This document shows positions 25,809-42,789 of a stretch of DNA of 64,000 nucleotides, piece by piece. The number at the start of each line of letters is the position of its first letter. The first letter of the stretch is position 1. The stretch is from Pseudomonadota bacterium. GTDB lineage: Bacteria > Pseudomonadota > Gammaproteobacteria > Burkholderiales > Ferrovaceae. The stretch is from assembly GCA_028873535.1 (NCBI GenBank), contig JAGWIJ010000001.1, positions 1 through 64,000 on the forward strand. Direction: 5' to 3'. Both the position numbers and the translations under genes were made by a program. Under the pieces are notes generated by a model. The model was not told the origin of the DNA and made no database searches. It was given only the letters and a program-made list of their open reading frames with translations.

Positions 25809-26663
25809 TTGCAGCCAAGGAGTGCTCCTCTGAGTACGCTCTACGATCCGCAGGCCACGATCAGCGACAGCGAATTCGCCGCCTTCCAGCGCCTGATCCA
25901 GCAGCTGACGGGTATCCACCTCTCCGACGCCAAAAAGCAACTGGTGTTCGGTCGCCTGCGTGCACGCGTGCGCCAACTGGGTCTCGACAGCTTCGAACAG
26001 TATTTCCGTCTGGTCAGTGCCAGCACCCAGGCCGACGAACGCCAGATGGTGGTGGACCTGCTCACCACCAACGAAACCTATTTCTTCCGCGAGCCGCGTC
26101 ACTTCGACCTGCTGCGCAACGAAATCCTGCCGCAGCGCCAACGCAACCGCCCCCTGCGCGTGTGGAGCGCGGCCAGCAGCAGTGGCGAGGAGGCCTACAG
26201 CATTGCCATGGTACTGGCCGATGCGCTCGGTGCCAGCCGGCAGGCCGCCTGGGAAGTGCTGGGCTCCGACATCAGCCGGCGGGTGCTCGACAAGGCACGC
26301 ACCGGGCGCTACCCGCTGCAGCGCATCGACGGCATTCCGAGCCACCTGATGACGAACTGGTGTGCCAAGGGCAGCGCGGCACAGGAAGGCACGCTGCTGG
26401 TCGATGCGGCAATCCGCGAGCGGGTCCGTTTCCAGCAGATCAACCTCAACGAGCGCCTGCCGGATATCGGGCGCTTCGAGGTGGTCTTCCTGCGCAACAT
26501 GCTGATCTATTTCCAGCCTGCCGCCAAGAACGAGATCGTGCGGCGGGTCGTCGACATCATGCATCCGGGCGCCTGGCTGATCGTGGGCCATTCGGAAAGC
26601 GTCAAGGGCAGCGACGAGCGTCTGCAGGTGCACTCCCCTTCGGTCTACCGGGTTGCCCGATGA
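25809..26663 (+). CDS. cheR: CheR-type protein-glutamate O-methyltransferase (first copy; non-ATG start)
   Basis: TNETYFFREPRHFDLL, WSAASSSGEEAYSIAMVL, VVFLRNMLIYF, LIVGHSES; start uncertain (TTG 25809 or CTG 25830). Confidence 0.88.
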   Translation: MQPRSAPLSTLYDPQATISDSEFAAFQRLIQQLTGIHLSDAKKQLVFGRLRARVRQLGLDSFEQYFRLVSASTQADERQMVVDLLTTNETYFFREPRHFDLLRNEILPQRQRNRPLRVWSAASSSGEEAYSIAMVLADALGASRQAAWEVLGSDISRRVLDKARTGRYPLQRIDGIPSHLMTNWCAKGSAAQEGTLLVDAAIRERVRFQQINLNERLPDIGRFEVVFLRNMLIYFQPAAKNEIVRRVVDIMHPGAWLIVGHSESVKGSDERLQVHSPSVYRVAR

Positions 26664-26807
26664 TCCTGATGGCGCTGCCGCCCGCATGACCCCGAAGCCG
26701 TGCAAATGCCTGACGCTCGGCAACACAAAATCTCAAGTCCTCCGGCAAGCCTGCCGTAATACCGACTGGTGCTCCAGGCACTGCCTCAACCGGAAAGCAC
26801 GCCCAGA

Positions 26808-27896
26808 ATGATCATCCTGATAGTCGTCGCCATCCTCTCGGCCACCGCCGGCCTCGCAGCCGGATGGCAGTTGGCCATACGCCGGGCGTCAAAGGCCGCC
26901 ACTGTGGTTGCGGACACGCAGGCGATTGCCGACACCGTGGTCCCGCCGCGGCTTGCTGGCGCACTGGTCGCGGCAGCACGCGTAAGCCGCCGCGTCGAGG
27001 CCGACGCCTCGACGGACATGGGGCGCCTGGCGGGCATTCTCGACGACACCATCGTGCGTCTGACCAAGCATTTCCAGGCCCTGGACCAGAACCACAAGGT
27101 CCAGAGCGCGATCCTGCAGCGCCTGCTGCGGCGTGAACTCGATGACGATGCCGCACAGCAGGTGCGTTTCGAGGATTTCGTCAATACCACCTCCGAGACC
27201 CTCGACATCTTCGTGCGCGCCACGGTCGAGACCAGCGAACTCTCGATCCAGCTGGCCACGCTTTCCGAGGAGGTCGTCACCAAGGTGAATCGCATCCTGG
27301 GCAGCCTGTCCGAGATCGAGGAGATCGCCAAGCGCACCAACATGCTGGCACTCAACGCCGCGATCGAAGCCGCTCGCGCCGGCGAGGCCGGCCGCGGATT
27401 CGCCGTGGTCGCCACCGAGGTCCAGCAGTTGTCCTTCGCCTCGCGTGGCTTCAGCGCCGGCATCCGCGGCGCGATCGGCGAAGTCGTCGACACCATCCAC
27501 AAGTCCGACGAGGCCATCGCCAGACTCGCTTCGCGCGACATGAACTTCGCGCTCACCAGCCAGCGCCGCGTGCAGGACTTCATGAGCGACGTGGCGCGCC
27601 TCAATGAATCCTTCGAGAGTTCGACGCGTGAACTCGACGGCCTTGCCGACACGTCGTCGCGCCATGTCGCCGGTGCCATCACCGCGCTGCAGTTCAATGA
27701 CATTGCCACCCAGCTGATCGGCACCACTTGCAAGCGCCTGAACTCGCTGCAGCAGCTGTCCGAGGCCCTCGATGGCGCCGGGCGCACCGAGATCGATGCG
27801 CTGGCGGCGCGACTGCGTGACATCGACGACAGCATCCACACCCACACCCCCGTTTCGCAACAGTCCGTCGACAGCGGCAGCATCGAAATGTTTTGA
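26808..27896 (+). CDS. Methyl-accepting chemotaxis-like protein with N-terminal TM and no periplasmic sensor
   Basis: [41 protein letters not shown] hairpin tip; [12 protein letters not shown]. Confidence 0.83.
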
Positions 27897-27909: not shown

Positions 27910-28215
27910 ATGAGCCTGAATGTCGTGTCACGCAATGCAAGTTCCAGCATCGAACTGCCCAAGACCTTCAACTATTCCAACCACAAGGACTTCAAGTCGG
28001 CCTACAGCGGCCTGCTCGAGGATGGTGGCGTGCGCGAAGTCGAGGTGGACTTCCGCGCCACCTCCTACATCGACAGCGCAGCGCTCGGCATGCTGCTGAT
28101 GTTGCGCAGTTGCGCCGAGGCCGCGGGCAAGACGGTGGCGCTGATCAATGCCAGTGGAACCGTGCGCGACATCCTCGAGATCGCGCATTTCGAGACGCTG
28201 TTCGCGTTCCGCTGA
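27910..28215 (+). CDS. STAS domain anti-sigma-factor antagonist
   Basis: VEVDFRATSYIDSAALGMLLMLRSCAEAAGKTVALINASGTVRDILEIAHFETLF with phosphorylatable Ser context. Confidence 0.9.
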   Translation: MSLNVVSRNASSSIELPKTFNYSNHKDFKSAYSGLLEDGGVREVEVDFRATSYIDSAALGMLLMLRSCAEAAGKTVALINASGTVRDILEIAHFETLFAFR

Positions 28216-28224
28216 TCACGCATC

Positions 28225-30015
28225 ATGCTTGACCGAAGTCTGTTTGCCGACCACTGCGCGCTGGTCCTCGAGGACGATCCGCGCGTACGTGATCGTCTGA
28301 TTGCAGCGCTCGCGCAACTCGGCCTGACCGCGGAACCGATCACCAGCACTGACGCGGTCCAGGATCTGGTCGACCAGAGCCCGCCCGATCTCATCGTGAT
28401 CGGGCGCGAGTTTGCCGGCGTCGACTCCCTGGACCTGGTCCGTCAGGTGCGCCGTACCGACCCGGCGCACTGGATTCCGATCCTGATGCTGGGCCGCGAC
28501 CGCGAAGGCAGCGCCGAGGTCGAGGCACTTCAGGGCGGCTGCGACGATTATCTGGTGCACGGCTTCGACACCGAGGTGCTGTTCGCCAAGCTCACTTCGC
28601 TGATGCGCATGCGCAAGCTGCGCAAGTTCTCCGAATTCCAGCGCGCCGAACTGGCGGCTTTCCGCGACCGCGCCGAGAGCGAGGCGGACCTTGCGCGCTT
28701 CCTGCTGTCGCGCCTGTCGCGCGTCGAGCATCTGGACGCTGTCGGTGTCGCCTATCACTGGCTGCCGGCCGAGGGCTTCAGCGGCGACCTGCTGGCCGCC
28801 ACGCGTTCCAGTTCCGGGGACCTTTACGGCCTGCTGGCGGACGCCACCGGCCACGGGCTCGCGGCCGCCATCAACCTGATTCCGCTGACCACGGCCTTCT
28901 ACGCCATGGCCACCAAAGGCTTCAACCTGCAGGCGATCAGCGAGCAGCTCAACAAAGTGGTCAAGGACTACTCGCTGCCCGACCGTTTCGTGGCCGTCAC
29001 CCTGGTGCGCTTTGCCGCACGCGAGCGGCGCCTGGAGGTGGTCAATGCCGGCAATCCCGCCGCCCTGGTGGTGGACCGCGAGCGTCGCGTCGTACGCGAG
29101 ATCCCTTCCGGCAGCATACCGCTCGGCATTCTCGACCGGCCCTTGTTCTCGCCCAAGGTCGAAGCCTTCGAACTCGCTGGCGACGAGGAGCTGCTGGTAT
29201 TCTCCGACGGCCTGATCGAGGCCTGCAACTTCGAAGGTGAACTGTTTGGCCGCGACCGCATCCTGGAGGCGATCGCCGAGGCCGACCCGGCGCACGATGG
29301 GCTGGTGCTGTCGCTGCAGACCTCGCTGGCGGCGCATTGCATCGGTGTCTCGCCTTCCGACGACATTTCGCTGATGGTGCTGCGCGCCCCCGAAGCCGAC
29401 CACCACCTGGTGCCAGGCCTGCCCGCCGCGAACGAGGCCGCGACAGCCGCCCCTGTGGCGGCGCCGGCGTCTCCGGACGCCGCGCAGGCAAGCACGCGCA
29501 GCCATCCCCAGAAGCGCTGCGTGGTCGAGGTCAGTTTTTCCAGCATAGAACTCCAGCGCATCGACGTGGTTCCGGTGATCGTCGACCTGACGCGCAGCAT
29601 CGGCTTGCGCAAGGCGCTGGAGTCACGCTTCTTCACCGTGCTGAGCGAGCTCTACGTGAATGCCCTGGATCACGGCCTGCTGGCGTTGGACTCCAGCCTC
29701 AAGGCCCAGCCCGACGGCTTTGAGCGCTACTTCGGCCTGCGCAGCGAACGCCTGGCCAGCCTCGACGATGGCGAAATCACGATCCGCCTCGACCACCGCT
29801 ACCTGCGCGAAGGCGGCGGCACGCTGCAGGTCGAAGTGACCGACACCGGTCCTGGCTTCGACCACCAGCGCTGCATCCGCGCGCTGCTCAATCCCGAACT
29901 GGGCGACAGCAGCATTCCGTCGGGACGTGGCCTGGGCCTCTTGCTCACCCTGTGCGACAAGGTGAAATTCAACGAGACCGGCAACTCGGTCTGTGTCGAC
30001 ATCAACTACGGCTGA
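28225..30015 (+). CDS. Receiver (degenerate)-SpoIIE/PP2C phosphatase-HATPase_c (RsbW-like) fusion, HsbR-like
   Basis: N-term REC; FSGDLLAATRSSSGDLYGLLADATGHGLAA, FSDGLIEACN, SPSDDISLMVL; C-term HATPase SELYVNALDHGLL, VEVTDTGPGFD. Confidence 0.88.
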   Translation: MLDRSLFADHCALVLEDDPRVRDRLIAALAQLGLTAEPITSTDAVQDLVDQSPPDLIVIGREFAGVDSLDLVRQVRRTDPAHWIPILMLGRDREGSAEVEALQGGCDDYLVHGFDTEVLFAKLTSLMRMRKLRKFSEFQRAELAAFRDRAESEADLARFLLSRLSRVEHLDAVGVAYHWLPAEGFSGDLLAATRSSSGDLYGLLADATGHGLAAAINLIPLTTAFYAMATKGFNLQAISEQLNKVVKDYSLPDRFVAVTLVRFAARERRLEVVNAGNPAALVVDRERRVVREIPSGSIPLGILDRPLFSPKVEAFELAGDEELLVFSDGLIEACNFEGELFGRDRILEAIAEADPAHDGLVLSLQTSLAAHCIGVSPSDDISLMVLRAPEADHHLVPGLPAANEAATAAPVAAPASPDAAQASTRSHPQKRCVVEVSFSSIELQRIDVVPVIVDLTRSIGLRKALESRFFTVLSELYVNALDHGLLALDSSLKAQPDGFERYFGLRSERLASLDDGEITIRLDHRYLREGGGTLQVEVTDTGPGFDHQRCIRALLNPELGDSSIPSGRGLGLLLTLCDKVKFNETGNSVCVDINYG

Positions 30016-30059: not shown

Positions 30060-31127
30060 TCAGTGCACGTGCTGTACCAGATGCCCCGCGATGTGCTGCA
30101 GGTCGAGTACGCTGCCGGCGGCACCGATCGCGATCGCCGCGCGCGGCATCCCGAATACCAGGCACGACTGCTCGCTCTGGCAGACCGTGGCCGCGCCAGC
30201 CTCATGCAGCGCCAGCATGCCCTGGGCACCGTCACGGCCCATGCCGGTCAGCAGCACGGCATGCGCGCGCTTGCCCAGCCCCAGGGCAGACTCGAACAGC
30301 ACGTCGACCGAGGGCCGATGGTGATTGCGCTTGGCCGATGCCTCGAGCTGGCAACGCCACTGCCCGCCATGCTGCGTGAGCATCAGGTGGCTGTGCCCGG
30401 GTGCGACCAGCACGCGTCCCCACTGCAGGCTGTCGCCCGTGGCTGCCTCGCGCACCTGCATGGCTGAAGCCTGGTCCAGGCGTTCGGCAAAATGGCGCGT
30501 GAAGGTCTCTGGCATGTGCTGCACCACCAGCACCGGCGGGAAGCTGGCCGGCAAGGCGGCCAGCAGCAGTCGCAGGGCCTCGGTACCGCCGGTCGATGCC
30601 CCGATCAGGACCACCGGGTCATGTCCGCCGAGCACGCGTCCGGGGGCCTTCACGGCCGGCACGCGCGGCACGGCAGCGGGCGCTGCCGGCGCGGCGCTGG
30701 CGGCACACGCAAGCGGATTGCGACAGGGAATGTTGGTCTTTGCAGCCATACGGATGCGCTCCACGATGCGTGCGGCATACTGTTCCCAGGCTTCGGCATC
30801 CTGCAGGGCCGGCTTTTCGATGATGTCCACCGCCCCCAGGCTCAAGGCCTCGAGTGCCGCACGCGATCCGCGCTCGGTGAGCGAAGACACCATGATCACG
30901 GGCAGCGGATGCAGGCGCATCAGACGCTCCAGGAATTCGAGTCCATTCATGCGCGGCATCTCGATGTCCAGGGTGAGCACGTCCGGCTTCGCCACCTTGA
31001 TCATCTCGCGTGCCGCATAGGGATCCGCCGCCGAGCCCACGCACTGCATGTCGGGCTCGTGGTTGATCAGTTCGCGCAGCACCGCACGGATGCTCGGCGA
31101 ATCATCGACAACGCCTACTCGGATCAT
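30060..31127 (-). CDS. cheB: Chemotaxis response regulator protein-glutamate methylesterase CheB
   Basis: MIRVGVVDDSPSIRAVL, LTLDIEMPRMNGLEFL, LIGASTGGTEALR, VVQHMPETFTRHFAERL, LLTGMGRDGAQGM. Confidence 0.94.
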   Translation of the reverse strand: MIRVGVVDDSPSIRAVLRELINHEPDMQCVGSAADPYAAREMIKVAKPDVLTLDIEMPRMNGLEFLERLMRLHPLPVIMVSSLTERGSRAALEALSLGAVDIIEKPALQDAEAWEQYAARIVERIRMAAKTNIPCRNPLACAASAAPAAPAAVPRVPAVKAPGRVLGGHDPVVLIGASTGGTEALRLLLAALPASFPPVLVVQHMPETFTRHFAERLDQASAMQVREAATGDSLQWGRVLVAPGHSHLMLTQHGGQWRCQLEASAKRNHHRPSVDVLFESALGLGKRAHAVLLTGMGRDGAQGMLALHEAGAATVCQSEQSCLVFGMPRAAIAIGAAGSVLDLQHIAGHLVQHVH

Positions 31128-31729
31128 GCGAACAGCTCCACATCGCCGGCGACCGGCGCATTGCGCAGGCTCTCGGCATAGGCGCGCTCGGCATTGCGGA
31201 CCAGGTCGCTGTCGACCTTGCGCAGCTTGCGCACCATGACCCTGGCAGTGCCAGGAAAGAAATAGATCTTGCGCGGAAAGACGTCCAGCAGGTCCTGCGC
31301 CACCACCGGGATGCCCTCGGTGCGCAGGTAGGTCAGGGCGAACTCGGCATTGCGTTCGCCTACATTGCTGGCGGTGAGCCCCTGCAGTACGGCACCTCCG
31401 CCGAAGATCTTGGCGCGCAGCGAGCTGCGCCGGGCGCCCTGGCGCACCAGCGCATTGATCAGCAGCTCCATTGCGTGGATGCCGAGCCGCGCAGGGACGC
31501 TGCCGCCCGTCGCGCCGCCCAGCTCGCTCGACGGCAGCATGAAGTGGTTCATGCCGCCGATGCCGGCACCGCTGTCGTACAGGCAGGCCGAGACGCAGGA
31601 ACCCAGCACCGTGACCAGCATCGCTTCGCGTCCACCGACGTGATACTGGCCAGGCAGCAGCTTCCACGCCCGGCACTGGAAGGTGCGGTCGAAATAGGAT
31701 TCGGGTTCGAGCAGCTCGCTGGCAGTCAT
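31124..31729 (-). CDS. cheD: Chemoreceptor glutamine deamidase CheD
   Basis: VTVLGSCVSACLYDSGAGIGGMNHFMLP, KIFGGGAVLQGLTASNVGERNAEFAL. Confidence 0.94.
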   Translation of the reverse strand: MTASELLEPESYFDRTFQCRAWKLLPGQYHVGGREAMLVTVLGSCVSACLYDSGAGIGGMNHFMLPSSELGGATGGSVPARLGIHAMELLINALVRQGARRSSLRAKIFGGGAVLQGLTASNVGERNAEFALTYLRTEGIPVVAQDLLDVFPRKIYFFPGTARVMVRKLRKVDSDLVRNAERAYAESLRNAPVAGDVELFA

Positions 31730-32571
31730 GCTGCGCGTCCGGCAGCGCGTGCCAGAGCGAAGATGGTCTGGCCCTCGTTGTCGAAGGGCAGCGAGCCGGC
31801 CCGGATGGTTTCCGAGTGGCCCAGGAACAGCCTGCCCTCCGGATGCAGCAGCGGCACGAAGCGGCTGAGCAGCCGGTGCTGGGTGTCACGGTCGAAATAG
31901 ATCATGACGTTGCGACAGAAGATTGCCGCCAGGGGCGCCTTGATCTGCCAATCGGGATCGAGCAGATTGATCTGCCTGAATTCGACCAGGCGCTGCAGTT
32001 CGCTGCGGACGCGCACGCGCCCCTGCTGACGGCCCTTGCCGCGCAGGAAGAAGCGCTCCAGGCGCTGGCGTCCCATGGCCTGGGCGGCCTCGAGTTCGTA
32101 GACACCGGCACGCGCCGTTCCCAGCACATTGGTGTCGACGTCGGACGCCAGGATCCGTACCGGGGGGCTCAGGCTGTCGAACGCCTCGGCCGCCGTGATG
32201 GCCAGGCTGTAAGGCTCTTCGCCGGTCGAACTGGCCGTGCACCAGATGGTCACCGGCCGCGGCAGGCTCGGCAGCAACTGCGCCAGGCGCACGAAATGAT
32301 GCGGCTCGCGGAAGAAAGAGGTCAGGTTGGTGGTGAGTGCGTTGACGAACTGCTCCCATTCCGCGCTGCCGACTGCCAGCGCTTCGAGGTAGGAAGCAAA
32401 GTTCGCGTGTCCCGTCACGCGCAGGCGCCGCGACACGCGCGAATAGACCAGTTCGGTCTTGACCGCGCTGAGCGAGATGCCGATGTTCTGATGCAGCAGG
32501 CCGCGGATGCGCTCGAAGTCGGCAGGCCGGAAGTCGAACTCGCGTTCACCGGCGCCCACGGCGTCGTTCAT
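31726..32571 (-). CDS. cheR: Chemotaxis protein methyltransferase CheR (second copy)
   Basis: LTTNLTSFFREPHHFVRLAQLL, WCTASSTGEEPYSLAI, IFCRNVMIYFDRDTQ, LFLGHSETI. Confidence 0.94.
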   Translation of the reverse strand: MNDAVGAGEREFDFRPADFERIRGLLHQNIGISLSAVKTELVYSRVSRRLRVTGHANFASYLEALAVGSAEWEQFVNALTTNLTSFFREPHHFVRLAQLLPSLPRPVTIWCTASSTGEEPYSLAITAAEAFDSLSPPVRILASDVDTNVLGTARAGVYELEAAQAMGRQRLERFFLRGKGRQQGRVRVRSELQRLVEFRQINLLDPDWQIKAPLAAIFCRNVMIYFDRDTQHRLLSRFVPLLHPEGRLFLGHSETIRAGSLPFDNEGQTIFALARAAGRAA

Positions 32572-32572
32572 G

Positions 32573-35488
32573 TCAGAACTCTTCCCATTCGTCGTCGAGC
32601 GGGGCAGCATCGAGACTGCGGATCGCCTCGGCAGCCGGACGCTGCGGCTCGGCAGCGGTGTCCGGACGCGGCGGGCGTGCACCCTCGCCCGCCGCCTTGC
32701 GGCTTTCGGGCCGGGTGGCCGGCGCATTTGCCGCCGCGCGCTGGACGGCAGCGCCACCCGTGCTGCGCGCCTTGGACGTGGCCGGCTTCGCGGCCGGCTT
32801 CGCACCCGGCATCATCGCCGCAGGCCTGCCTGCCGGCATGGCGGTCACGCCGCCGTTGCCGGAAATGCGGAAGACTTCCACCGAGGCCTTGAGACGCTGC
32901 GACTGCTCGGCCAGCGATGCCGCCGCAGCCGCTGCCTGCTCGACCAGCGCGGCGTTCTGCTGGGTGCCCTCATCCATGTTGGTGACGGCGGTGTTGACCT
33001 GGCTGATGCCCGTGGCCTGTTCGGTCGAGGCATCGCTGATCTGACGCACCAGGGTGGACACGTTCTGCACGGCCGCGACCAGGTCGGTCATGGTGGAACC
33101 GGCTTTCGCGACCTGCTTGGCGCCGAGTTCGGCGCTTTCGACCGACTCGCCGATCAGACCCTTGATCTCCTTGGCAGCGGTCGCGCTGCGCTGCGCCAGG
33201 CCGCGAACCTCGCTCGCCACGACCGCGAAACCGCGCCCTTGTTCGCCGGCGCGTGCAGCCTCGACCGCGGCATTGAGCGCCAGGATGTTGGTCTGGAACG
33301 CGATGCCATCGATCACGCCGATGATGTCCACGATCTTGCGCGCCGAGGCGTGGATCTGGTCCATGGTCGCCACGACTTCCTGCACCACCTGGCCGCCCGA
33401 GAATGCGACGCTGGCGGCTTCGCCGGCCAGCCGGTCGGCATCGAGCGCATTGTCGGAGTTCTGCTTGACGGTGCTGGTGAGCTCTTCCATGCTCGCCGCC
33501 GTTTCCTGCAGGCTGGACGCCTGCTGCTCGGTGCGGATCGACAGGTTCTGGTTGCCCTGGGCGATCTCGCCTGCAGCGGTGTTGATCGCATCGGTGATGG
33601 TGCGGACCTCGCCGACCAGCCGGGTGAGCGCGGTCGCGGTGCCGTTGCAGTTGTCCTTGAGCGCACCGAACACGCCGGCCAGATCGCGCTCGATCCTGTA
33701 GCTCAGGTCGCCCGCAGCCAGCTTGTCGAGCGCAACGCGGACTTCGCCCAGGCCATCCGACGCGGTCTCGAGCAAGGCGTTGATGTTGCCCGCCACCAGC
33801 CGGAAGAATCCGCTCTTGCCGTCCACGGCGATGCGCTTCTCGAAATCACCCTGTGCCGCGGCCGCGATCACCGTGGCGATCTCCTCTTCCGCTTCGATCT
33901 CGACCGTGCGATCGGCCCACTGCACGACCGTGCCGATGCGCGCGCCTGCAGTGTCCGTGACCGGCGCGACGATCAGGCGCATGCGCAGCCGGCCCACCTT
34001 GATGTCGCTGGTCTGGCTTGCCTTGAGATTGCGCAGCATCCCGGTCTGATGCGCAGGATTGGCGTGGAACTCGTCGATGGAGCTGCCCAGGATCTTCGCC
34101 ACCGAGAAGCGCGGCAAGGCGGCACGCAGGTCGGATTCGACCCCGCCGAGCAGGCTGATGACGGCCGGATTGCAGTACACGATGCGATTGTCGGCATCGG
34201 CCACCATCACGCTTGCCGACACCGAATCGAGGGCGGTGCGAATGCGCAGATTGACGGCAGCGGCCTCCTGCTCGCGCGTCAAACGCGATTCCAGGTCGGC
34301 ACGCATGCCCTCGAGGCCCTTCATCAGACGCGCCATTTCGTTGTCGCCGCGGATCTTCTCACCGTCGCTGGCCAGATCGCCGCCCGCAATCCGTGCAGCG
34401 CGCGCCAGCAGGCGGCTCACCGGGACAGTGATCGAGCGCGTCACGGCCACGCTGATCATCAACAGCAGCATGACCAGCCCGGCGACCAGCGCGCCGATGC
34501 CCATGCGCTGGCGGCCCAGGCTGTCGATGCGTGCCTTCAGGCTGTCGCCGAACACGGCCAGGGCCTTGTCGCTCAGGGTGCCGCCGAGGGCCACGCTTTC
34601 ATCGAGATGCTTCAGGGCGGCCTCGATATCGGCTGGCTGGATGCCATGTGGTGCACCTGCGCGAACGGGTCCATGGCCGGATCTGGCCACCAGTTCGCCA
34701 ACCGCGGCAAGGCTGCCGCCAGTGGACTGTTCGAGCTGCATCGACAGATCGCCGAGGGCCTTGCTCGCGTCGGCATCGGTGGAGGCCGCAGCGGCCGCCT
34801 TGACGGCGAGCTGGACACCGCGCAGGCGGTTTTCCACGCTCAGTTTCAGCAGCCGCAGATTGCCGATCGCGACCTGTTCATCGATCGCATGGCCGCCGAG
34901 CAGGATCACCGTGCCGCGCAGGCGGCCGACATCGTCGAGCAGCGGCGCCACGCGGTTGCTGACGGCATCGAACATGAAGTAGCTGGCAGCCTCGGGATCG
35001 AGACTGATGGTCGATGCGTTGGCGACTTCGCTGACCAGTGCCAGCGAGTCATCGGCCAGCTGGAAACCGGACAGCGCAAGGTCCTGGGCCAAGGCGTTCG
35101 GCGCCATCGCCGTCTGCGCGAAGGCCTCGACGCGCTTGCGCCGCGCGGCCACGGCTTCGCCCAGTCCGGCGATGCCGCTGGCTTCGCTGCTGCGTTCCAG
35201 GTCGCTGATCGCCTGATCGGTCTTGCGGCGTGCCTCTTCCACGGCAGCCGCCGGCGCGCCTCCCGCCAGATGCAGCAGGGCAGTGCCACGCAGGGCGCGC
35301 ACCGCTGACACCAGGTGCACGGAATCGACCAGCGGCGGGGTACCCGCCTGCTCGCGCCGCGCCTGGTCGAGGTTGCTGCCGGCCTCGTTCCACAAGGTGC
35401 TGGCGGGAAGCAGCAAGGCGCCGAGCGCGACCCCAGCCAGCAGGCTCAGCTTGGACTTCAGTCCAAGGCGGTAATAGAGGGCATTCAT
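32573..35488 (-). CDS. Methyl-accepting chemotaxis protein with PAS domain and C-terminal WEEF pentapeptide
   Basis: TM helices, HAMP, PAS ([28 protein letters not shown]), [44 protein letters not shown], ends DEWEEF. Confidence 0.94.
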
Positions 35489-35512
35489 CGACAGGGCTCC
35501 AGCGCTTCCCGC

Positions 35513-36025
35513 TCAGGCGGTCGCGACTTCGGATTGGATGGCGGTTTCGGGATTGCTCAGGCCCATTTCCGGACCTTCGAGCAGGCAGGCGATGTCGACC
35601 AGGATCACCATGCGATCCTCCAGGGCGCCGAGCCCGAGCAGGTACTCGGTGCCCAGCGTGGACGAGAATTCGGGCGCCGGCCGGATCTGCTCGGCACGCA
35701 GCGTCATCACGTCAGACACGCTGTCGACGACGATCCCCACGATGCGCGTGCCGATGTTCAGGATGATCACCACCGTGAAAGCGTCGTAGCGCGGCTCGCT
35801 CAGCCCGAAGCGGATGCGCAGGTCGACGATGGGTACGATGTGTCCACGCAGGTTGATCACGCCCCTGATGAATTCCGGCGTGTTGGCGATATGCGTGACG
35901 GCATCGTAGCCCCGGATCTCCTGCACCTTCAGGATATCGATGCCGTATTCCTCGCGACCCAGCGTGAAGGTGAGGAACTCGCGGGCAGAGCCCGCAATGG
36001 CGGAATTGTCGAAGGCGGTTTCCAT
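35513..36025 (-). CDS. cheW: Chemotaxis coupling protein CheW
   Basis: [59 protein letters not shown]. Confidence 0.95.
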
Positions 36026-36045
36026 GGCAATCGTCCCGGTGGCAA

Positions 36046-38004
36046 TCAGTGACGTGTGGCGTGCTGCACCAGCGCGTCGGTATCGAGGATGAAGGCGACG
36101 CGACCGTCGCCCAGGATCGTGGCGCCCGAAAATCCTTCGGTGCGCCGGAAATTGGTTTCCAGACTCTTGATGACGAACTGCTGCTGTCCGATCAGGGCAT
36201 CGACCGACAGCGCGATGCGGCGTTTGCCGTCATCGAGCAGCACCAGGATGCTGTCCTGCACGCCATGGCTGCGCGCCGGAATGTTGAGCACCTGATGCAG
36301 CTTGACCACCGGCAGGTAGGCGCCGCGCACCTCCACGACCTCGTCGTGTCCGCCGATGGTGCGCAAGGCACCCTGCTGCGGCTGCATCGATTCCGAGATC
36401 GCGGCCAGGGGCAGCACGAAGACTTCCTCGCCGACAGCGACCGACATGCCGTCCAGGATGGCGAGCGTGAGCGGCAGGCGGATGGTGATCCGCGTGCCCT
36501 GTCCCGCCTCGCTGCGGATCTCGACCCGCCCACCCAGGCTCTGGATGTTGCGCTTGACCACATCCATGCCGACACCGCGGCCGGACACGTCGGTCACCTC
36601 GGCCGCGGTCGAAAAGCCCGGCGCAAAAATGAGGTCCCACACCTGTGCGTCGCTGGCATTGGCGTCGACCGGAATGCCGCGCTCGGCGGCCTTGGCGAGG
36701 ATCCGTTCGCGATTCAGGCCGGCACCGTCGTCCGACACCTCGATCACGATTGCACCGCCCTGATGGCAGGCGTGCAGGCGCACCAGGCCCGTCTCCGACT
36801 TGCCCTGGGCAAGACGGCGCTCGGCCGTCTCGATGCCATGGTCGATGCTGTTGCGCACCAGATGGGTCAGCGGATCGGCCAGCTTCTCGACCAGGGTCTT
36901 GTCGAGTTCGGTCTGCTCGCCGCTGATGCGCAGATCCACCTTCTTGCCGAGCTTGGCCGACAGGTCGCGCACCAGGCGCTGGAATCGGCTGAACACGGCA
37001 TTCATCGGGATCATGCGCATGGACATGGTCGCTTCCTGCAGATCGCGCGTGTTCCGCATCAGCTGGGTCATGCTGTTGAGCAGATTCTCGTGCGCGCTCG
37101 CATCCAGGGCCGCCATGCCCTGGGCCAGCATCGACTGCGTGATCACCAGTTCGCCGACCAGATTGATCAGCAGGTCGACCTTCTCGATGCCCACGCGGAT
37201 CGAATTGTCGTTCTCGCCACCCGTCTTGCGCCGCGGTGCGCGTGCCTGTGCCGCTTCTTCGGCGGCGTTGACCGGCGCGCGTGCGCTGCCGGGCGACACC
37301 GCCGCGGGCACACCGTCAGCGCCAGGCAGCGGCTGCGGGGGGGATGCTTCAGAGGGCGTGTCGAACAGGCCGAAGCTGTCGTCGACCTCGCCCGCAATCC
37401 CTGAATGTGCGAAGGCCCGGCCAGGCGCCGCTTCCGTGGGCTCGAACAGGCCAAAGCTGTCATCTTCGGCGGCAGGGTACGCCGTGGCTTCGAACAGGCC
37501 AAAGCTGTCATCCTCGGCCGCAGGGTCCGTCGTGGCTTCGAACAGGCCAAAACTCTCATCCTCCAGCGGCGCGCTCTCCGCGGCCTGCTCGCCCGGCCGA
37601 GGGGGCATGCCGGCATCGCCGTTCGTCAGGGCGTCGAGTTGAGCCCCGAGAGCGGCAATCCGCTCGGCGCCGGCCTCGCTGCCGTGCTGATGATGTTCGA
37701 CCAGCCCCAGCAGCGCATCACCGCTCGCCAGGAACACGTCAATCATCTCGGAACGCAGTTGGCGTTCACCCTTGCGGATGCCGTCGAGGATGTTCTCGAG
37801 CTTGTGCGTGAACGCGGCGATATCCGCGAAGCCGAAGGTCGCCGCGCCGCCCTTCACCGAGTGTGCAGCCCGGAAGATGGCGTTGAGTTCCTCGGCATCC
37901 GGCGCTGCCGGGTCGAGGTCAAGCAGCAGCCGTTCCATGGCGGCGAGGTGATCGCGCGCCTCGTCGAAAAACAGCTGATGAAATTGCGAGAGGTTCTTGG
38001 CCAT
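36046..38004 (-). CDS. cheA: Chemotaxis histidine kinase CheA
   Basis: HPt [16 protein letters not shown]; dimerization/HATPase [31 protein letters not shown]; CheW-like C-term. Confidence 0.95.
37357..37563 (-). repeat. Four copies of DDSFGLF(E/D) linear motif inside CheA linker, partly as 48-nt tandem repeats
   Basis: [47 protein letters not shown]...[12 protein letters not shown]. Confidence 0.85.
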
Positions 38005-38055
38005 CGGCAGGGGAAGTCCGGTTTACGGGGTGGATGGCTGCAAGGTGGCAGCCGG

Positions 38056-38418
38056 TCAGCCGATCAGCTTCTGCACCACCGCGACCAGCTTGACCGGATC
38101 GAAGGGCTTGACCAGCCAGCCAGTCGCGCCGGCCGCCTTGCCCTGCGCCTTCATCGCATCGCTGGTCTCGGTGGTCAGCACCAGGATCGGCGTGCTGCGA
38201 TGCTGAACCAGGCCGCGGATGTTCTTGATCATGGTCATGCCATCCATCTGGGGCATGTTCTGGTCGGTCAGCACCAGCTGGACCTGCGAGCCCTTGGCCT
38301 TGGCCAGGCCTTCGACGCCATTGGCGGCCTCGATGACGGCGTAGCCGGCATCTTTCAGCGTGTGCGTCACCAACTGGCGGATCGACGGGGAATCATCAAC
38401 AGCAAGAATGGTTTTCAT
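38056..38418 (-). CDS. cheY: CheY-like single-domain response regulator
   Basis: ILAVDDSPSIRQLV, LVLTDQNMPQMDGMTMI, VKPFDPVKL. Confidence 0.94.
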   Translation of the reverse strand: MKTILAVDDSPSIRQLVTHTLKDAGYAVIEAANGVEGLAKAKGSQVQLVLTDQNMPQMDGMTMIKNIRGLVQHRSTPILVLTTETSDAMKAQGKAAGATGWLVKPFDPVKLVAVVQKLIG

Positions 38419-38440
38419 GGCTTGAGCGCTTCACTCGGTT

Positions 38441-40837: not shown

Positions 40838-42538
40838 TCAGTCGCCGTGCATGGGGTTGTTGCCGAAATCCTTGATCGTGCTGGCGCTCACCCCGGTCAC
40901 GCTGCTGCCGGTGAGCGTCTCGCTGCCAGTCACAAGCACGAAGTCCCCGACTGCGATCGACGCCGCAGTGCCGGCCATGCCGGTGACCGTGGTGCCGCTG
41001 CCGACCGCGACGGTGAGGCCGTCGACCTGCAGGCTGCTGCCGGTGCCCAAAGCGCCGGTGACCACCCCGCCCAGGCGGACGTTGCTGGTGGGCGCGACCA
41101 CCTCAAGGGCCACCGCATGGAAGGTTGCCGGGGTGGTGCTGGTGTCCTGATAACCCACCACCACCACACTCGGGCCGCTCAGACCATTGAGGTAGCTGCC
41201 CGCCGTCATCACGTTGAAGGGATTGCTGCCGGACATCATGCTCATCGATGCCGTGCGATCGATGAAGCGCGTGTGTGCATCCAGCACCACATGAGTCCCC
41301 AGGATGGACAGGTCATACGGCGCGGCGCTGCCGGTCACGGCCCCGCTGACCAGGGTGTCCTGGATCAGGAAGGGAGTGCCCTGCTGCGCGTGGCTTTCCT
41401 CGGTGCTGATCGAGGTGGCCGTGATGCTGAGATCGCTGTTGACCGTGCCCAGCACTTCCACGCGGTCGCCCGCCGCCGGCAACGTCAGGCCGCTGCCAAC
41501 CTGGATGGTGACGCCATCCAGGGTGAAGGTTGCCGGCGTCGCGGTGCTGACCACATTGGCGGCCAGTCCCTCGAGTTCAACGGTAGAACCACTGGTCAGG
41601 GTGGCGGCATGGCGCGCCATCATGACGTCGGGCTTGAAAGCCACGTTGATGGCAGCGGGACCGCACGTGATGGTCGGCATGGCCGAGCCACGCGCGGCGA
41701 TCAGGGCGCCAGCGCTGAAGGCGCAGCTGCCCGCCGCAGTGCAGGCAACGGAAGGGTCAAGGCTCAGGCCCCCCATCATGAAGCTTGCCGGCGGCGTGCC
41801 CATGCCCACGGCCGTGACACTGCCTTCAGCCTTGAACACCGGCGTGGCCCCGGCGTCCAGGAAGCGCACCAGCGTGGCCTGGATGGTCGAGGCGCCGCTG
41901 CTGCTGGTGCTGAGCAGGCCGAACACCTGCGCATAGCGGCCGGGCGTGAAGGTGCTGCCGCCGCCCTGGTTCTGGAAGCCGCTGCCCGAAACCGCACACG
42001 ACTGGTCGGTCGCCAGCAGTTGGCTCTGGGCCGTGATGGCCGTGCACGTGCTGGCGCTGACACAGGCACGGTCATCGCGGAACACCGTGCTGCTGGAGAG
42101 GGCAACCGTCTGCCCCATGATCTGCAGGGTGCCGGCGCTCGTGTTCGAAGCGTCGATGTAACCGCGCGCCAGCGGATGGATATGGATTTCGCCGGCATGC
42201 GGAGCAGCCGAACTGCTGTCGTCAGCGGCTTTCACGTCCACGGTCATGCCGACTGTCAGACCGTTGCTGCTGGCGTTGGTGTTGCTGAGGGTGGCCGTGC
42301 TGCTGTTGCTGACGTCGTCATCGAACACCTTGGCCGATGCCGTGCTGAACTCGTGCCCGTTCACGAACACGCTGCCAAACGCGGTCAGCGTGCCCGAGGA
42401 CGTGGATCGGGCTGCGGCGGCCGTGGCGGCCGGCGCGCTGCTGGTGGCGGAACTGCCGCTGCCGGAACCGCCGCCACAGGCGGCTAGCACCAGCGCAGTC
42501 GTCATACAGATCACTGCATGGTTAGTGGTCAATCGCAT
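40838..42538 (-). CDS. DUF5666 domain lipoprotein
   Basis: Lipobox TTALVLAACGGG; FGSVFVNGHEFSTASAKV and repeated DGVTIQVGSGLTLPAAGDRVEVLG-type units. Confidence 0.78.
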   Translation of the reverse strand: MRLTTNHAVICMTTALVLAACGGGSGSGSSATSSAPAATAAAARSTSSGTLTAFGSVFVNGHEFSTASAKVFDDDVSNSSTATLSNTNASSNGLTVGMTVDVKAADDSSSAAPHAGEIHIHPLARGYIDASNTSAGTLQIMGQTVALSSSTVFRDDRACVSASTCTAITAQSQLLATDQSCAVSGSGFQNQGGGSTFTPGRYAQVFGLLSTSSSGASTIQATLVRFLDAGATPVFKAEGSVTAVGMGTPPASFMMGGLSLDPSVACTAAGSCAFSAGALIAARGSAMPTITCGPAAINVAFKPDVMMARHAATLTSGSTVELEGLAANVVSTATPATFTLDGVTIQVGSGLTLPAAGDRVEVLGTVNSDLSITATSISTEESHAQQGTPFLIQDTLVSGAVTGSAAPYDLSILGTHVVLDAHTRFIDRTASMSMMSGSNPFNVMTAGSYLNGLSGPSVVVVGYQDTSTTPATFHAVALEVVAPTSNVRLGGVVTGALGTGSSLQVDGLTVAVGSGTTVTGMAGTAASIAVGDFVLVTGSETLTGSSVTGVSASTIKDFGNNPMHGD

Positions 42539-42789
42539 GAGTTCTCTCCTCAAGCCGTGGGCCTTGTTGATTCGGCGTACGAAGCCGCGGACATGCGCGG
42601 CATCGCATCGTGCCGGATTGTAAACACGAAACCCGGTGCGAGGGATAGTTTCCCACGCCATTTACATCAATTTTCACCTTCCAGAAACTGGCACTGAATC
42701 CATTTATCACTCATAATTCATGCATCAACAGGGCATTTCTCCTGTTTCACTTAATATATTGAGCCGCGCCGAACGGTTCGGGACAAACC

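Follow-up and report, generated by a model that had tools for sequence, protein, structure and literature searches.

The protein encoded at positions 28225..30015 (+ strand) of the window, meaning the whole stretch of 64,000 nucleotides analysed, probably acts as an HsbR/CrsR-like partner switch on the STAS protein encoded next to it, with its N-terminal receiver serving as a phosphorylation-independent structural input, a reading to which we give a rough probability of 0.55. The protein is a fusion of 596 aa, in which the receiver is followed by a helical linker, a SpoIIE/PP2C domain and a HATPase_c_2 domain. As proposed here, the HATPase and PP2C domains would respectively add and remove a phosphoryl group on the STAS protein whose gene lies immediately upstream, and the phosphorylation state of this protein would control how much of a sigma factor, most probably RpoS, is available. 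The pseudo-receiver would dimerise or dock via its retained alpha4-beta5-alpha5 face, and the PP2C switch would sense the state of this contact through one continuous helix formed by alpha5 and the linker. The receiver may be permanently dimerised, or it may dock a chemosensory partner, for which a component of the adjacent chemosensory array (the short MCP, CheA/CheW or CheY) would be the likeliest candidate.

Domain organization and the receiver pocket

All three domains of the fusion gave Pfam matches exceeding the curated cut-offs, in the receiver-PP2C-HATPase order that is required for HsbR/CrsR response regulators. The Response_reg match covers residues 13-123 (42.3 bits, E 9e-11, cut-off 30.2), and the pseudo-receiver as delimited by Pfam, alignment and AlphaFold2 spans aa 13-130 (28261..28614, + strand). 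Structure prediction, which the first-pass annotation had proposed as a check, returned a (beta-alpha)5 fold with a mean pLDDT of 88, from an input alignment of only five sequences, and this fold and the Pfam match together indicate that the N-terminus is a real receiver-family domain. In the monomer model, alpha5 and the linker form one continuous predicted helix (116-149), followed by a second predicted helix (153-164), within the segment that leads from the receiver to PP2C (aa 116-165; 28570..28719, + strand); this continuity supports the reading of the receiver as a structural input. The best Foldseek matches of the receiver are ordinary OmpR/PhoB-type receivers, BeF3-activated and inactive alike, and therefore do not indicate which state the domain mimics.

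The output domains appear intact. The SpoIIE/PP2C domain (aa 200-388 by Pfam; 28822..29388, + strand; 114.9 bits) has all of its motifs, including the metal motifs: FSGD (aa 185), DATGHG (206), FSDG (326) and SDD (378). The HATPase_c_2 domain, which is of kinase/anti-sigma type (aa 455-591; 29587..29997, + strand; Pfam 36.8 bits), likewise possesses its N, G1 and G2 boxes (ELYVNALDHG, DTGPGF and GRGLGL). A sequence search of solved structures gave no match to the PP2C-HATPase part.

The receiver, on the other hand, has lost its phosphorylation chemistry. Translation of 28225-28620 reproduced the strings PDLIVIG, PILMLG and DDYLVHGFD, from which the first-pass annotation had read an Asp to Gly change at the phosphoacceptor, Gly at the Thr position and a Lys to His change, and alignment bears out all three. 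Gly60 (GGG, 28402..28404), Gly90 (GGC, 28492..28494) and His112 (CAC, 28558..28560), all on the + strand, occupy the positions matching CheY D57, T87 and K109, where 113/126 aligned receivers have Asp, Thr or Ser, and Lys. The acidic pair is retained, as had been claimed, but was misplaced by one residue, since the pair aligned to CheY D12/D13 is E16-D17, a normal PhoB-like E-D pair that D18 follows, rather than D17-D18. The loss is also wider than the three signature residues originally described, as G42, P64, G68 and P113, all invariant in canonical relatives, have gone as well (G to T42, P to A64, G to S68 and P to G113, the last in the codon following His112).

The fusion therefore lacks the phosphorylatable receiver (D, T/S and K) that HsbR/CrsR response regulators need, and there is strong support for the earlier view, in which Asp phosphorylation of the HsbR kind was judged unlikely; the receiver is probably unable to accept a phosphoryl group. 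That it might still be phosphorylated somehow, weakly or on Ser/Thr by another kinase, is considered very improbable: the acidic pair and the switch aromatic Tyr109 do remain, but none of D, T and K survives, nor do the Pro and Gly of the loop or the Pro that follows the Lys, and there is no Asp at or beside the phosphoacceptor position. Even less credible is a sequencing or assembly error, or a pseudogene, which the draft state of the genome (193 contigs) would allow for and of which the sequencing error had been named as a possible refutation. Restoring the seven codons would need at least 12 base changes, and the GC3 of the receiver (0.82) is like that of the rest of the fusion (0.85 and 0.87), which excludes both a sequencing slip and a broken frame as explanations of the receiver; the ORF also has no frameshift and its catalytic motifs are intact.

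Origins of the loss and the retained face

HsbR-like fusions were gathered by order-, class- and phylum-level searches, and the order and class finds were aligned with the window receiver (126 receiver-bearing rows, 125 of them relatives). Six rows have lost all three residues. The window receiver reads G/G/H; in another genus, represented by four genomes, the residues are A, C or G / P / L or M; and the sixth row, a single additional protein, reads A/A/E. A quick IQ-TREE tree of the catalytic part alone, rooted at the midpoint, needs three separate origins for this triple loss, and a loss shared by ancestry with the other decayed receivers was ruled out by this quick method. Of the receivers in the same genome, 20 of the lowest-scoring were fetched, and within this set D, T and K are jointly missing only in the window receiver. 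Two others in this genome have a changed Asp with T/S and K kept (L201, C98:1859-2188, Asp to Gly; L204, C24:2171-2509, Asp to Glu). Partly or wholly decayed receivers occur on other HsbR-like fusions too (L106, in which only the Asp is changed, to Gly, and L036, L088, L128, L133 and L135), forming a graded series that would be of use for experiments. At one locus (L100), a STAS gene is flanked by two HsbR-like fusions on one strand, in neither of which could a receiver be recognised in the alignment.

HMMs built per domain from the 113 canonical relatives gave the window fusion 58 bits for the receiver (canonical minimum 119, median 162), 221 bits for PP2C (minimum 207, median 286) and 159 bits for the HATPase (median 183), where the canonical rows score slightly high through having trained the HMMs, a bias that is the same in all three domains. 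As judged from these scores and motifs, the loss is confined to the receiver, a specificity that supports the structural-input reading.

What the receiver has kept is not evenly spread. Counting positions conserved in at least 80% of canonical receivers, with the active-site Lys and Pro excluded from the face, the window receiver keeps 7/7 positions of the alpha4-beta5-alpha5 face (G105, D107, D108, L119, A121, K122 and R128) and 6/21 elsewhere (Fisher p 0.0014 against the face, with segments chosen after seeing the data); in the beta3-alpha3 pocket loop the figure is 1/8. The independently decayed genus, which together with the lineage of the window receiver is among the two most decayed, agrees, with 6/7 face positions and 0–1/8 loop positions kept, and this retention in two independent lineages supports a structural role for the receiver.

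No closer ortholog was found by the order-, class- and phylum-level searches, with none outside the genome itself above 38% identity and most at around 35%, and a single-protein scan of the genome contigs returned only unrelated canonical receivers. This lack of close relatives makes dN/dS impossible on the window receiver, and the independent decayed clade was therefore used instead (L016/L098, L081, L095 and L097, a genus-wide clade of the same order, with receivers that score 14–29 bits and are barely recognisable, evidently under partial purifying selection, and with CheB/CheD and STAS genes adjoining). By simple NG86 counts, dN/dS in this genus is 0.22–0.53 for the pseudo-receiver and 0.08–0.18 for its own PP2C domain, with 0.03–0.11 in canonical receivers. 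In this genus the receiver, normally the slowest or near-slowest domain, is now the fastest, yet still constrained. The constraint favours the structural-input reading; the several-fold excess over canonical receivers weighs against it, being compatible also with the gradual decay of a domain no longer needed.

The genome encodes a paralog (G000:C86:13141-14547, L022) with 54% identity to the fusion over aa 119-595, the input of which is not a receiver but PAS (PAS_3 at 222-306 by Pfam; another stretch, upstream of this, looks PAS-like by eye). In the quick IQ-TREE tree the two proteins pair with full support, and their branch is long, at 1.4 changes per site. Modular exchange of input domains has been argued previously (PMC12143880), and the same output joined to a non-receiver input in one genome is in line with a linker that serves as the shared transmission element; a PAS on the homologous linker thus supports the reading of the receiver as an input. 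It cannot be claimed that the STAS protein is uniquely common to both switch proteins, as the genome has two other STAS frames (C51 and C42). Just downstream of the paralog lies an ORF (L022, 3055-4374) similar by eye to a DUF5666 protein found near the chemosensory cluster of the window (40838-42661).

The main rival to this reading is that regulatory control has been taken over by another component, such as the PAS paralog, and that the receiver is an inert tether in slow decay, leaving an enzyme that is constitutive and set by its expression level. We regard this as unlikely but to be taken seriously, as the paralog exists, the pair sits on its long branch, the comparable pseudo-receiver of the other decayed clade evolves at several times the canonical rate, and many pocket positions are lost; an inert tether would not, however, be expected to retain one face selectively in two independent lineages, to hold dN/dS below 1 in the other decayed clade, or to have a receiver fold predicted intact. 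It is less likely again that, as in ShkA, CikA or KaiA, a small molecule such as c-di-GMP or a quinone is bound in the emptied beta3-alpha3 pocket or elsewhere on the domain and so controls the linker. Ligand-binding pseudo-receivers have been described, often using regions unlike those of true receivers, including the beta3-alpha3 loop (PMC12632262), which is remodelled in the window receiver. Against this, neither a ligand motif in the window receiver nor a metabolic gene nearby was observed, and the nearest folds are those of ordinary receivers.

Gene neighbourhood and the candidate partner

The fusion is the last of four + strand genes, following a CheR methyltransferase that begins the cluster (25809..26663; Pfam), a short MCP of 375 aa (26769..27896) and an HsbA/CrsA-like STAS anti-sigma antagonist with an IDSAALGMLL phospho-site region (27910..28215), and the adjacent STAS gene that HsbR/CrsR response regulators need is thereby present. 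Facing these genes is a – strand operon in the order CheY, CheA, CheW, MCP, CheR, CheD and CheB, with CheB and CheD at 30060..31729 and the remainder at 31726..38421. The CheA possesses an Hpt, and the CheY (38074-38409; D/T/K) and CheB (D/S/K) of the cluster both retain canonical receivers. No Hpt gene adjoins the fusion, and a stand-alone Hpt frame is found elsewhere in the genome (C138).

A STAS gene lies on the same strand within 400 bp of 131/148 fusion ORFs (sampled loci, duplicates included), and many of the sampled loci adjoin CheB/CheD or the short MCP. This association, the match of the cluster to Shewanella che1 and the presence of an RpoS gene in the genome (418.6 bits) support the partner-switch reading; FlgM, on the other hand, was not found in the genome (~93% complete), which weighs against the proposal. 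The decayed genus has the same chemosensory neighbourhood (L098 and L162), suggesting that the link between the fusion and the Che cluster is independent of a phosphorylatable receiver.

The short MCP, in which a single N-terminal TM segment is apparent by eye and Pfam finds no sensor domain, belongs to a family found in 8/41 relatives; all eight are also fusion carriers, which favours the proposed reading. Control by binding, or via an MCP-like protein, had been suggested in the first-pass annotation, and the support for it is circumstantial, consisting of the position of the MCP in the operon, the co-occurrence of the two families, and the selective retention of face and linker. More tentatively still, and on balance doubtfully, HsbR/CrsR-type receivers may repeatedly have become phosphorylation-independent docking or dimer modules, such that a chemoreceptor array would control a sigma-factor switch by contact; the pocket would have been discarded and the alpha4-beta5-alpha5 output face kept, with contact replacing CheA phosphotransfer.

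Proteins of the short-MCP family and the CheDs of these clusters were also observed to have in common a C-terminal peptide, approximately G-[DES]-[VI]-[ED]-L-F, located at the very end of the chain or a few residues before it. It is present in nearly all short-MCP homologs and in ~20/22 CheDs with the stop in view (among them L087, L102, L105, L147 and L160-L163). In the window the MCP has a divergent version (GSIEMF) and the CheD (31124-31729) ends GDVELFA. The peptide suggests a common docking partner; a literature search for such a peptide in MCPs and CheDs found nothing.

Comparison with known partner switches

HsbR of Pseudomonas aeruginosa (HptB-HsbR-HsbA) has the same receiver, PP2C and HATPase order and a STAS antagonist as partner; HsbR acts as a kinase of HsbA when it is itself unphosphorylated and as the phosphatase of HsbA when it is phosphorylated (PMC6482189). 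The HsbR receiver is, however, the target of HptB (PMC6482189), whereas the window receiver has neither phosphoacceptor, Thr and Lys nor an adjoining Hpt gene. The CrsR-CrsA pair of Shewanella oneidensis matches in context as well, with the same three domains, a STAS partner, MCPs and a Che set in one locus (PMC6482189; PMC9855816), che1 comprising CheA/Y/W/R/D/B, two MCPs, CrsR and CrsA (PMC9855816). CrsR and HsbR both bind RpoS, the described target of CrsR (PMC6482189), and the genome of the window has the gene. CrsR is described as a receiver-bearing regulator, and is likened to the fusion here by that description, its domains and its locus. Because its receiver lacks the residues for phosphorylation, the fusion is not classed as a genuine HsbR/CrsR response regulator, but at the output level it should, judging from its domains and motifs, work like one.

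For the transmission step, the fusion resembles RsbU, RsbP and RssB in having an N-terminal module, a helical linker and a PP2C/PPM domain. In these proteins it is the coiled-coil linker that, by dimerising, activates the PPM phosphatase, with inputs from receiver, PAS or partner-bound N-domains (PMC12143880). They differ in their modules (an RsbT-binding bundle, PAS or a receiver) and in having no HATPase in the same chain, and an RsbU-like mechanism would be consistent with the continuous helix predicted for the fusion.

The window receiver falls within the published definitions of both pseudo-receivers, in which any of five conserved residues is missing (PMC12632262), and aspartate-less receivers, in which the phosphoacceptor Asp is missing, here as Gly60 (PMC12632262; PMC4395418). 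Pseudo-receivers are common, at several percent of PF00072, and how bacterial ones switch has been called unsolved (PMC12632262). The kind is therefore known, but the window receiver differs from those described in having lost D, T and K together while keeping the face. No pseudo-receiver of HsbR/CrsR type with complete pocket loss and the face kept was found in the open-licence literature searched, and this combination, with more than one origin, appears to be an undescribed variant. The fusion may be seen as a known kind of switch in an uncommon form that lends itself to testing. One family holds a natural series of canonical, partly decayed, pocket-dead and receiver-free (PAS) forms that share one PP2C/HATPase output and in most cases have the same STAS gene as a neighbour, and the role of an unphosphorylatable receiver is therefore testable with STAS phosphorylation as the readout.
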